DNA of 64,000 nt from NCBI GenBank assembly GCA_025057155.1, contig JANWYD010000010.1:62001-126000 (forward strand), read 5' to 3'. Below, piece after piece: positions 8,699-62,721 of the stretch (the stretch's first letter is position 1; every line of letters starts with the position of its first letter). The notes below the pieces were generated by a model that was not told the origin of the DNA, made no database searches, and worked only from the letters and a program-made list of their open reading frames with translations. This DNA comes from Chloroflexaceae bacterium. Lineage in GTDB: Bacteria; Chloroflexota; Chloroflexia; Chloroflexales; Chloroflexaceae. A program made the translations under genes and the position numbers.

Positions 8699-8830
8699 CA
8701 GTCTGTGAACCAGGTTTTTCGGTGATCACCTGCCCCTTCCCCCGCCGGGGGAGGGCGCCCGGTTCATCCTCCCAGCGGGGGGGCGCCTGCGAGGGAGGCG
8801 GATGTGCAAGGAAACGTAACTTCACAGACG
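8699..8830. mobile_element. MITE family 2, copy a (rpmH-rnpA gap)
   Basis: A 132-bp non-coding element that begins cagtctgtgaac and ends taacttcacagacg, i.e. imperfect terminal inverted repeats. Inside are the GC-rich blocks cttcccccgccgggggaggg and gggggggcgcctgcgaggga. It shares order and text with the copies at 15641-15962 and 42854-42994. It occupies about one third of the 384-bp gap between rpmH and rnpA. No open frame in it resembles a protein. Confidence 0.75.
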
Positions 8831-14597: not shown

Positions 14598-15545
14598 ATG
14601 ACAGACCTGGCAATTGTGACCCGTGGTTTACGCAAGCACTATGGTGCGGTGATCGCGGTTGATGGGATCGACCTGGCGGTCCCCACCGGGACGATCTACG
14701 CACTGTTGGGGCCGAACGGGGCGGGCAAGACGACAACCATCAATATGCTCACCACTCTGGCCGTGCCGACGGCAGGCGAGGCGTTCGTGTGCGGCTACGA
14801 TGTTGTCCGGCAGGCCGATCAGGTGCGCGCGTGCATCGGGGTGACATTTCAGGACATCGTGCTCGATGCCGATCTGACGGGCCGCGAGGTGCTTGACATC
14901 CATGGCCGGCTCTACCGCCTGCCCGCCGCCTTGCGCCGCCAGCGTATCGCGGAACTCGTCGAGCTGGTGCAACTGGGCGAGACGATTGACCGGCGTGTGC
15001 ACACCTATTCGGGCGGCATGAAGCGCCGGCTGGAACTGGCCCGCGGGCTGATGACCGATCCCCGGGTGCTCTTTCTCGACGAGCCGACGCAGGGCCTCGA
15101 CCCGCAGAACCGGGTGGGGATCTGGAGCTACCTCCGCTCCTTGAACCGTGAGCGCGGTCTGACGCTCCTCCTCACCACCCACTACATGGACGAAGCGGAG
15201 GCCCTCGCCGGGCGGGTAGGCATCGTTGACTACGGCCGTCTTGTCGCCGAAGGAACGCCGGGTGAGCTGGCAGCCGCTCTGGGCGCCGATGTGATCCGCG
15301 TGCGTGGTTCCGGAAATCGGGAGCATTTCGTGTCCCACGTCGCGGCCCTCCCCTTCGTTGCGCGCGTCGAAATCGATCCGGAAGCGGCAATGGTGCTGGT
15401 GTACGTAGATAGCGGCAGCCGGCGTCTGGTTGAGGTAGTGGGCCTGGCTAGCGGTGACGGCTTTGTGGTCGAAGACGTGACAGTCTCGCGTCCTGGCCTC
15501 GGGGATGTGTTTTTGCACCATACCGGGCGGGCGCTCCGTGATTGA
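14598..15545 (+). CDS. ABC-2 type exporter, ATP-binding subunit (DrrA-like)
   Basis: A 315-residue ATPase with Walker A GPNGAGKTT (38-46), signature YSGGMKRRLELARG, Walker B VLFLDEP and switch histidine in TTHYMDEAE. The extra C-terminal domain (about 220-315) is typical of the DrrA/NatA class, which energise export of drugs, lipids or polysaccharides with a separate ABC-2 permease. The partner permease is at 16045-16800, but 499 bp of repeat-filled DNA now separates the two genes. Substrate unknown. Confidence 0.93.
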   Translation: MTDLAIVTRGLRKHYGAVIAVDGIDLAVPTGTIYALLGPNGAGKTTTINMLTTLAVPTAGEAFVCGYDVVRQADQVRACIGVTFQDIVLDADLTGREVLDIHGRLYRLPAALRRQRIAELVELVQLGETIDRRVHTYSGGMKRRLELARGLMTDPRVLFLDEPTQGLDPQNRVGIWSYLRSLNRERGLTLLLTTHYMDEAEALAGRVGIVDYGRLVAEGTPGELAAALGADVIRVRGSGNREHFVSHVAALPFVARVEIDPEAAMVLVYVDSGSRRLVEVVGLASGDGFVVEDVTVSRPGLGDVFLHHTGRALRD

Positions 15546-15640: not shown

Positions 15641-15962
15641 TAGTCTGTTAACAAAGTTTGTCGCTAGACCCTCACCCACTCTCTAACCCTTCCCCGCCGG
15701 GGGAGGATCTCAGGTATATTTTTGGGCGAGCAGGGGTTTTCAGCATTCCAATGCGCTTACGGTCCTCACCCCCCTGCCCCCCTCTCCCGCGCGCGGGAGA
15801 GGGGGGAGTTGGGTGTCCCAATGCCCCGGATGGCGAATGCGACGTGAGGATGCTGGAAACCCCTACACCTGAGAAGCCGGGGGAGGGCGCTCGGCTCCTC
15901 CCCCAACTGGGGGAGGCTGGGAGGGGGCGGAAATGCCAGGGAACTTACTTCGGAGAATACTA
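15641..15962. mobile_element. MITE family 2, copy b, interrupted by a family 1 MITE
   Basis: Left part 15641-15706 reads tagtctgttaacaaagtttg and continues ctaacccttccccgccgggg; right part from about 15876 continues gcgctcggctcctcccccaa and ends gggaacttacttcgg. Removing 15707-15886 gives an element of about 142 bp colinear with copies at 8699 and 42854. The right end is degraded. The insert is flanked by gccgggggagg at 15696-15706 and 15876-15886, an 11-bp direct duplication. Confidence 0.75.
15708..15874. mobile_element. MITE family 1, copy A (nested insertion)
   Basis: A 167-bp element starting tctcagg and ending cccctacacctgaga. Its centre is a perfect palindrome ctctcccgcgcgcgggagag. 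The blocks gcattccaatgcgctt, gtcctcacc, gttgggtgtcccaatg and gtgaggatg(tg)ctgg are shared with copy B at 62526-62698. The left terminal repeat is diverged in this copy (tctcaggtatattttt). No coding capacity. Confidence 0.8.
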
Positions 15963-16044: not shown

Positions 16045-16800
16045 ATGAATGCGACCCTGGTCATCTGGAACAAGCATATGACCAAGTTCCTCCGCAGCAC
16101 CGAAGAACTGCTGGGGTTGCTGCTACAGTCAGTGCTGTGGGTCGTGCTCTTTGGCGTGGGCATGCGCGGGATGATCGGCGAGGTGGACGGCAGCGACTAC
16201 ATGTCCTACATCCTGCCGGGAATCATCGCGCTGAGCGCCCTGGGCGGGTCGGTAGGCGGCGGCATGGTGCTTCTCGACGAGCGCCTGCGCGGCATTCTGA
16301 AGGAGTATCTGGCCGCGCCCATCCCTCGATTGAGCATTCTCCTCGGCAGTGCCACGAGCACCGCCACCAAGGCGTTGATCCAGGCCCTGATCATGCTGCT
16401 GGTAGGTATTCTCATGGGCGCTCGTCTGGCGCCTAACCCGTTCGGATGGTTGGCCTCCCTGCTCTTGCTGACGATCTTCGCGGTAGGCTTCAGCGGGTTG
16501 GCGCTGGCCGTGGCTGCCGTCTCGCGCTCGATTGCGGGCTACCACGGCATGATCTTCCTCTTCAACCTGCCGCTGCTTTTCGCCTCGAATGCCCTCTATC
16601 CGCTCGCTGTGCTGCCGGGATGGATGTTGGCCATCGTTTTGTTCAATCCGACCACCTATCTCATCGATGCGGTGCGTGGCCTGGCCTTCGGCACGCCCTA
16701 TACCCTCCCGTTGCCCCTCAGCGTGGCCGTGCTGACGCTATTCGCCCTCGCCTGCACCTGGCTGGCGCTGGTGGTATTTCAGCGTTCCATTCGGGGTTAA
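16045..16800 (+). CDS. ABC-2 type transporter permease
   Basis: A 251-residue protein with six predicted membrane segments and the ABC-2 pattern (SYILPGIIALSALGGSVGGG, then FNLPLLFASNALYPLAVLPGW before the last helices). It would pair with the ATPase at 14598-15545 to form an exporter. Start ATG 16045. The substrate is not evident. The C-terminal FNLPLLFxSNAxYP motif matches the daunorubicin/polyketide-type permeases. Confidence 0.9.
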   Translation: MNATLVIWNKHMTKFLRSTEELLGLLLQSVLWVVLFGVGMRGMIGEVDGSDYMSYILPGIIALSALGGSVGGGMVLLDERLRGILKEYLAAPIPRLSILLGSATSTATKALIQALIMLLVGILMGARLAPNPFGWLASLLLLTIFAVGFSGLALAVAAVSRSIAGYHGMIFLFNLPLLFASNALYPLAVLPGWMLAIVLFNPTTYLIDAVRGLAFGTPYTLPLPLSVAVLTLFALACTWLALVVFQRSIRG

Positions 16801-42853: not shown

Positions 42854-42994
42854 CAGTCTGTAAAGTAAGTTTCCTGGCATCTCCACCCCCCTTCCAGCCT
42901 CCCCCCAACGGGGGGAGGCGCCAGGCGCCTTCTCCCGGCGGGGAAGGGTTAGGAAGAGGGTTGGGATTTAGCGAAAAACTTCGTTCACAGACTG
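42854..42994. mobile_element. MITE family 2, copy c (best preserved)
   Basis: A 141-bp element with ends cagtctgtaaagtaagttt (42854-42872) and the complement of cagtctgtgaacgaagttt at 42976-42994, 17 of 19 matched. Inside: cctccccccaacggggggag and cccggcggggaagggttagg palindromic blocks. Inverted relative to the copies at 8699 and 15641. Lies between the methyltransferase gene and the leaderless DUF58-cluster promoter. Confidence 0.82.
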
Positions 42995-57333: not shown

Positions 57334-58515
57334 GTGTCTACACCTGGTAATGAGCTTCGCCGGCTCGGCGCCATGCTGCTGCTAGGGGTTGTTGCGGGCG
57401 CCGCCGCGCGTCACTATATCGAGAGTCGCACGCGCAGCGAGGGCTACCGCCCGCCACGCCTGATTGACTGGCAGCAGGCCCGCGAGATGGCTCTGCGCGT
57501 GGCGCAGTGGGAGCAGGCGCCGGTGCTGAACCGCGCCTATCGCCAGGAGCAGTATTTTCGTCTGGTGAAGCGCAGTGAGCCGTTGATCGCGGAGTACCTG
57601 GGGGTGCAACTGCCTCAGCCGATCAGCCGGGTGTATGTCCACGACCGGCGCGAGTGGCTGGAGGCGAACTTTGCGTCGTTCGAGCAGTTGTTCCGCCCGA
57701 TCGAGGAGATTTACGAGCGGAACGGCGGCGGGCGCAGCGTGAGCGCCGTGCTCTTCGGCGAACTGAACGGCAAGTTTCTCGGCGCGCAACTGGGCTTGCT
57801 GCTGGGCTATCTGGCCCGCCGTGTGCTTGGCCAGTACGATCTGAGTCTCCTCTCGCCTGATCCCGCCACCCGCGGCGCGCTCTACTTTGTCGAACCGAAT
57901 ATTGCGCGCGTCCAGCAGCAGCTCGGCCTCAATGACGAGGATTTCCGCCTCTGGATCGCTCTGCACGAGGCCACCCACGTGTTCGAGTTTGAGGCGTATC
58001 CGTGGGTGCGCCAGCACTTCCGCGATCTGTTGCAGCAGTATTTCGATCAGCTCAATCTGCAACTGGAGCGTTTCGGCAACGGGTTGCCGCAGTTGCTGGT
58101 TCGCATCGCCCAGGGCCTTGCCAGCGGCCAGCACTGGATCGAGACCATGTTGACCCCCGAGCAGCGGCGGATCTTTGAACAACTCCAGGCGCTGATGTCG
58201 CTGGTCGAGGGCTATGGCAACCATGTCATGAACGCGGTGGGCCGGCAGTTGCTGCCGAGTTTCGAGCAAATCGAACAGCGTGTGGCCCAGCGCCAGGCGA
58301 ATAAGACGGTCCTCGAGGTGCTGATAAACCGGATTACGGGCATGGATCTGAAGCTGATCCAGTACCAGCAGGGTGAGGCCTTCGTCAACGCAGTGACGCA
58401 AACCCGTGGGGTGGTCTTCGCCGCCCGCGTCTGGGAGCGGCCTGAGAATCTGCCTACCCTGGAGGAGATCCGCAATCCGGGAGCCTGGATCAGGCGTATG
58501 GACCGGCAAGGATAA
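57334..58515 (+). CDS. DUF2342-type zinc-dependent metalloprotein (F420-biosynthesis-associated family)
   Basis: A 393-residue protein. An N-terminal hydrophobic segment (about 10-22, LGAMLLLGVVAGAAA) could anchor it. The zincin motif HEATH starts at residue 211 in LWIALHEATHVFEF, with a downstream Glu-rich helix (SLVEGYGNHVMNAVG) that holds candidate third ligands. The pattern fits the actinobacterial/Chloroflexi DUF2342 group. GTG 57334 has AGGA 7 bases upstream and is preferred over TTG 57328. Protease activity is not proven for the family. Confidence 0.85.
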   Translation: MSTPGNELRRLGAMLLLGVVAGAAARHYIESRTRSEGYRPPRLIDWQQAREMALRVAQWEQAPVLNRAYRQEQYFRLVKRSEPLIAEYLGVQLPQPISRVYVHDRREWLEANFASFEQLFRPIEEIYERNGGGRSVSAVLFGELNGKFLGAQLGLLLGYLARRVLGQYDLSLLSPDPATRGALYFVEPNIARVQQQLGLNDEDFRLWIALHEATHVFEFEAYPWVRQHFRDLLQQYFDQLNLQLERFGNGLPQLLVRIAQGLASGQHWIETMLTPEQRRIFEQLQALMSLVEGYGNHVMNAVGRQLLPSFEQIEQRVAQRQANKTVLEVLINRITGMDLKLIQYQQGEAFVNAVTQTRGVVFAARVWERPENLPTLEEIRNPGAWIRRMDRQG

Positions 58516-58520
58516 TTTGG

Positions 58521-58580
58521 ATTTTGGATTTTGGATTTTGGATTGCCATATACGGAAATCCAAAATCCAAAATCCAAAAT
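58521..58580. repeat. Inverted heptamer repeat (24-bp arms)
   Basis: Left arm 58521-58544 (attttgg repeated three times plus att), 12-nt centre, right arm 58557-58580 exact complement. Found in the 292-bp gap between convergent genes, where it could fold as a strong terminator. Otherwise the gap contains a weak relative of the 16914-16949 hairpin near 58782-58808. Confidence 0.8.
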
Positions 58581-58807
58581 GGCCATACTCCTCCACCAGT
58601 TGCCCGGCAGCGGTGCAGGGATCAAGAAAGTGGCCGCGTTCCAGGGAGGCGCGCTACGAAGGCGCGGGTCACTGCCAGACGGACGGGGGCGGGTGCGATG
58701 CCTGCCTGAAGTGAAGGCAGACGGCCCGGGGGCGGGTTCTGGGAGGGCGAGGATCTCTCACGAACACGTCTCAGGGCGGACAGGCAGGGGTGACCGGCTG
58801 GTCGCCC

Positions 58808-62470: not shown

Positions 62471-62525
62471 CGCCGAAGGTTGGGCCACTTGTGCACCCTC
62501 GGGTGGGAGGGGAGGTGGGGAAACC

Positions 62526-62698
62526 TCTCAGGTGTAGGGTTTTTCGAGCGAGAAGGAGTTTTCGGCATTCCAATGCGCTTGTGATCCTCACCCCCCGCCC
62601 CCCTCTCCACCGTAGGTGGAGAGCGGGAAGTTGGGCGTCCCAATGTCCCGGATGGCGCATGTGACGCGAGGATGTGCTGGAAAACCCTACACCTGAGA
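62526..62698. mobile_element. MITE family 1, copy B (best preserved)
   Basis: A 173-bp element with perfect 18-bp terminal inverted repeats tctcaggtgtagggtttt (62526-62543) and complement (62681-62698). Flanking 13-bp direct repeats aggtggggaaacc at 62513-62525 and 62699-62711. The central stem ctctccaccgtaggtggagag differs in sequence from copy A yet keeps base pairing, suggesting the fold matters. No coding capacity. Confidence 0.85.
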
Positions 62699-62702
62699 AG
62701 GT

Positions 62703-62721
62703 GGGGAAACCCGGTTTCCCC
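62703..62721. repeat. Palindrome GGGGAAACC-C-GGTTTCCCC beside MITE 1 copy B
   Basis: Same design as 12197-12215: 9-bp arms around one base. Copy B of MITE 1 lies at its left side, and the left arm text is duplicated as part of the 13-bp direct repeat. Confidence 0.6.

Follow-up and report, generated by a model that had tools for sequence, protein, structure and literature searches.

We analyzed a window of 64,000 nucleotides (contig 10, positions 62001–126000) from the 5.13-Mb genome of a member of the Chloroflexaceae (Chloroflexales). Between the genes for an ABC transporter ATPase and an ABC-2 permease, one short repeated element (family 1, copy A) lies nested in another (family 2), as an earlier note on this DNA had proposed (Table 1). 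When the flanks were rejoined without copy A and without one copy of the duplication, they formed a single continuous family-2 element, matching positions 1–136 of the family-2 model (HMM, E = 7e-26). On inspection of the sequence, copy A begins with ATCTCAGGTATA... and ends with ...TACACCTGAGAA. The 11-bp text reported on both of its sides is an exact repeat, and a perfect match (11/11) placed precisely at the two ends of a defined element would arise by chance with a probability of ~2e-7. The interruption, previously placed at 15696–15886, is real, but copy A proper covers only 15707–15875, positions 15876–15886 being the second copy of the duplication. The right end of the interrupted family-2 element (~15962) is degenerate and its own duplication is not readable. 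Alignment of the copies agreed with the earlier claim that family 2 continues uninterrupted across this site at 8699 and 42854; the latter copy aligned to the interrupted one best on the minus strand (83% over 63 nt), because family 2 is nearly palindromic.

Table 1. Features of the nested locus and related copies within the window
Feature	Position	Strand	Description and basis
ABC transporter ATPase gene	14598–15545		One side of the interrupted family-2 element
ABC-2 permease gene	16045–16800		Other side of the interrupted family-2 element
Family-2 left half, interrupted element	15641–15706	+	Left end TAGTCTGTTAACAAAGTTT; family-2 HMM on rejoined site, copy alignment
Target duplication, left copy	15696–15706	+	11 bp, GCCGGGGGAGG; register set over 80 copies
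Family 1 copy A	15707–15875	+	169 bp, gene-free MITE, most likely of IS4 type; HMM match, end/duplication analysis
Copy A imperfect terminal inverted repeats	~15707–15721 and ~15861–15875		
Target duplication, right copy	15876–15886	+	11 bp, GCCGGGGGAGG; register set over 80 copies
Family-2 right half, interrupted element	15887–15962	+	Degenerate right end ...GAATACTA; HMM, copy alignment
Uninterrupted family-2 copy	8699–8829	+	77% identity to family-2 consensus; alignment
Uninterrupted family-2 copy	42854–42994	+	75% identity to consensus; nearly palindromic; best fit to interrupted copy in reverse
Second family-1 copy (L070), outside family 2	62525–62699	+	Exact 11-bp duplication GGTGGGGAAAC at 62514–62524 and 62700–62710

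The family-1 model was built from 52 seeds and gave 96 matches in the sequence collected from this genome, 80 of them near full length. Copies of both families were gathered by searches and from stretches of sequence rather than from the whole genome, so that their counts are lower bounds. Family-1 elements are ~169–176 bp long, within the size limit for MITEs (<~600 bp), have no coding capacity and carry the ends CTCTCAGGTGTAGGG. Like other MITEs, they combine terminal inverted repeats, a duplication of fixed length and a high number of copies with ends that are common to transposase-bearing elements. Among the 80 near-full copies, identity between the two flanks was 75% at 11 bp compared with ~44% at other registers; 39 of them agreed at ≥10/11 positions in the 11-bp register, and about half lacked a clean duplication. 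Family-1 loci in related Chloroflexales genomes gave 85% flank identity at 11 bp, with ≥10/11 in 25/34 copies. This sharp peak identifies 11 bp as the length of the family-1 target duplication. The duplication starts with G or C in 94% and ends with G or C in 90% of the family-1 copies; G/C at the duplication ends has been reported for Tn5 targets (PMC1525189). Family-1 ends are nearly confined to Chloroflexota MAGs, mostly Chloroflexales, e.g., Chloroflexaceae SKW209 and Roseiflexus SKYB12, and the few matches elsewhere, each a single exact match in an unrelated genome, may be due to chance. The window's second family-1 copy (62514–62710 with its duplications) sits inside another palindrome, GGGGAAACCCGGTTTCCCC, resembling those at several other family-1 sites (e.g., L037, L066, L120).

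Family 2 is ~139 bp long, and its terminal inverted repeats have the ends TAGTCTGTRAA. With up to 2 mismatches allowed, 318 such ends were detected in the genome against 1 in a reversed control, which corresponds to roughly 160–250 copies. The target duplication, which together with the inverted repeats is typical of a MITE, was best supported in a 5-bp register (65% identity; exact in 18/54 rows, with many copies counted once per strand). No convincing autonomous partner (parent IS) of family 2 was found among the collected loci. Family 2 also occurs in head-to-tail arrays of three copies (L024/L030, C27:24326–24748) and two copies (L018, C6:13139–13414), whose neighbours are separated by a 5-bp sequence. 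Elsewhere in the window, at 58499–58595, inverted arms of TTTGGATTTTGGATTT repeats are 80% complementary over 40 nt. In the literature searched, which was of limited coverage, we found no published account of family 1 or family 2.

The best explanation of the locus, to which we assign a probability of roughly 0.92, is that a family-1 non-autonomous transposon inserted, most likely by means of an IS4-family transposase, into a pre-existing family-2 element. This reading draws on directly observed features: the boundaries, the 11-bp duplication, the continuity of family 2, the recurrence of the arrangement and the ends held in common with IS4-family elements. A family-2 element would first have been present between the two transporter genes; family 1 would then have inserted into it, most likely via an IS4-family transposase, and staggered joining to a target 11 bp apart followed by gap repair would have generated the duplication GCCGGGGGAGG. 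The earlier note had named recombination between family-2 copies as the alternative that could refute nesting. In such a scenario, the two family-2 halves would derive from different copies and would have been brought together, through recombination or gene conversion, on either side of a family-1 copy. The many copies of both families make such an exchange possible, and some of the family-1 copies that lack a clean duplication may have arisen by it. Nevertheless, the duplication at copy A is exact, measures 11 bp and has the same register as in other copies, and the halves abut correctly in family-2 coordinates. Recombination does not account for an exact duplication whose length is shared by dozens of family-1 copies, and we regard it as extremely improbable here.

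That family 1 inserted into family 2 can be deduced from the duplication, which consists of family-2 text, and from the existence of uninterrupted family-2 copies, in agreement with the earlier claim that family 1 moved when family 2 was already in place. The relative ages claimed for the two families hold as well: identity to consensus was 92% for family 1 versus 76–77% for family 2, and the more diverged family 2 would thus be the older. Reciprocal nesting, with family 2 dividing a family-1 copy, was not detected in the sequence collected from this genome. Together, the divergence, the host and insert identities given below and the lack of reciprocal nesting support the view that family 2 came first. 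The earlier note had also proposed to look for the uninterrupted element in related strains. Two congeneric genomes encode the same ABC ATPase/ABC-2 permease pair, separated by spacers of 116 and 41 bp compared with 495 bp here. Neither family 1 nor family 2 was present at the orthologous spacer in these two nearest relatives compared, and the spacers are too diverged to reveal an exact empty site. Most simply, both insertions would have occurred after the split from these two genomes.

Nesting of this kind is recurrent. When the flanks of the 80 family-1 copies were rejoined and scanned with the family-2 model (E < 1e-5), 21 of the 80 copies were found nested in family 2, and 19 of these matched on both sides of the junction. 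The nested fraction was 15/64 in a set defined by end pattern and 13/39 with family 1 alone as query, and it therefore does not stem from the initial query, in which family-2 sequence was included. In related genomes 3/34 family-1 copies were nested, in a sample that holds few family-2 matches (13 in 426 kb). It could be argued that both repeats simply pile up in limited intergenic space without any target preference, and indeed many copies are intergenic and G+C-rich, and a target model trained outside family 2 already ranks the family-2 arms high, as described below. However, 21/79 nested copies were observed where the genome share of family 2 predicts ~0.5 and an assumed 12% intergenic share ~4.5 (binomial P ~2e-9 against the latter), and eight insertions fall at a single position, which makes a density effect unlikely; with a 10% share, P is still 2e-5.

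These eight copies occupy one identical site, CTCCCCAACCC, located exactly at family-2 positions 37–47 or at the mirror position; copy A, inserted at family-2 position 54, lies outside this hot spot. An insertion position shared so exactly would also be expected if composites of family 2 carrying family 1 had spread as a unit by a family-2 transposase, the nesting itself having arisen once or a few times. This possibility was tested and rejected on the basis of the insert and host identities and the unshared flanks. The eight hot-spot inserts were 88.7% identical mutually versus 87.9% to other family-1 copies, their family-2 hosts were on average only 69% alike, and no 16-mers common to the outer left flanks of the hot-spot composites were found; the other nested copies, copy A included, are at different positions. 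Spread as a unit is thus very unlikely. With such dissimilar hosts, and inserts hardly closer to each other than to the remainder, the hot-spot insertions look like separate, independent events in already diverged hosts. Having occurred ~20 times, and at a preferred site, the nesting is a matter of target preference and not of age alone, a point missed in the earlier note.

The basis of this preference was approached by a target model trained solely on family-1 insertions outside family 2. Relative to the whole window, this model places the hot spot at the 97th percentile, and family 2 contributes ~2.8 times its expected share of the top-5% sites, which indicates that a preference for G+C-rich targets accounts for part of the family-2 bias; the insertion point of copy A reached just the 76th percentile. 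Palindromic structure may add to the bias, although the test was mixed: the palindromicity of insertion sites was significant against shuffles (p = 0.001) and not against neighbouring DNA (p = 0.29). Targeting of hairpins as the sole cause was thereby not supported. We infer that family 1 lands in family 2 repeatedly because the transposase prefers G+C-rich, often palindromic targets such as the family-2 arms offer.

Candidate sources of movement were found among elements with family-1 ends in other genomes. Locus L219 (1426–2800), from the same taxonomic family, contains a 1375-bp element with family-1 ends and a 390-codon open transposase frame with the YREK signature WYRLRAWIEASYKAMK. Its transposase has a glycine where relatives have the second catalytic aspartate and may therefore be inactive, and the 11-bp duplication is absent (4/11 match). 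Loci L190/L232 (Roseiflexus SKYB12) contain a degenerate 1362-bp element with family-1 ends and an exact 11-bp duplication. Homologues of the L190/L232 transposase are encoded on cyanobacterial (Stanieria, Nostoc) and Methylomagnum plasmids, in elements having inverted repeats of similar sequence (16–18/18 between ends) and perfect 11-bp duplications. The homologous transposases match PF01609 and also NCBIfam IS4_2, the latter below the model's cut-off; among solved structures, the transposase had no counterpart. They contain the Y(2)R(3)E(6)K signature, its invariant residues being Y271, R274, E278 and K285 of A1, which is the hallmark of the IS4 family (PMC2266710). Further IS4 characters are the DDE transposase, the single ORF, the 11-bp duplication (about one helix turn, 8–13 bp in the family) and a length of 1293–1362 bp in the elements with duplications. 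The same ends and 11-bp duplications on YREK-containing IS4-family elements point to family 1 as most likely an IS4-derived MITE, probably moved by an IS4 transposase acting in trans.

Within the genome under study, the search detected no intact matching transposase; the only trace is an IS4-type fragment at C7:66644–67168 (L106 880–1570 = C7:66479–67168), adjoined by a family-1 copy without duplication. Family 1 may therefore no longer be mobile there. The C20 transposase, the only one retrieved by a PF01609 search of the same genome, was discarded as a source as it is without matching ends, and a genus-wide PF01609 search revealed no transposase flanked by such ends. A full-length transposase frame was also observed in an IS4-type element at L216 (1386–2757) that is inserted precisely in the middle of a long palindrome, CACCCCCCCTAGCCCCC / GGGGGCTAGGGGGGGTG; the element has no 11-bp direct duplication.

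De Palmenaer et al. 2008 (PMC2266710) described the IS4-family insertion sequences and tabulated seven subgroups. The presumed parents of family 1 resemble this family in having a single gene, a length of ~1.3–1.4 kb, the YREK signature and a duplication of about one helix turn, and their 5'-CT ends are as in IS10, IS50 and ISPepr1 (PMC2266710). A fixed 11-bp duplication together with CT ends, however, matches none of the seven rows: duplications are 9 bp for IS10, 8–9 bp for IS50 and 7–8 bp for ISPepr1, while IS231 (10–12 bp) and IS4 (10–13 bp) have other ends (PMC2266710). Unlike IS4-family elements, family 1 itself is gene-free. Its short length, absence of genes, inverted repeats, duplication, high copy number and full-length relatives elsewhere are as in other bacterial MITEs (PMC10969869); the word "nested" does not occur in the text of that review. 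A parallel in target choice is ISRm22, an IS4-family element inserting in the REP palindromes of Sinorhizobium meliloti, which shares the preference for G+C-rich extragenic palindromic repeats and the G/C at the duplication ends (PMC1525189). ISRm22 is a complete IS whose copies all lie in REPs, at the axis of the palindrome, and it has 6-bp repeats (PMC1525189), whereas family 1 is a MITE that has 11-bp duplications, about a quarter of its copies within a single repeat family and a hot spot located in an arm.

The nesting cleanly exemplifies a type of event that is already known, and the interaction of two MITE families within a genome adds a further case without a new mechanism; the genome-wide insertion bias is of modest interest. 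More tentatively, and with considerable doubt, family 1 could show genuine semi-specific targeting of the family-2 arms, the IS4 lineage responsible then belonging to none of the described subgroups. If true, family 2 would serve as a landing pad, so that an IS4-type MITE stays out of genes. For an uncultured Chloroflexales lineage, the locus shows in which order two repeat families invaded, and it links an abundant MITE family with a transposase of IS4 type; the ~20 natural insertions into the same repeated target are useful for understanding how IS4 transposases choose G+C-rich palindromes.
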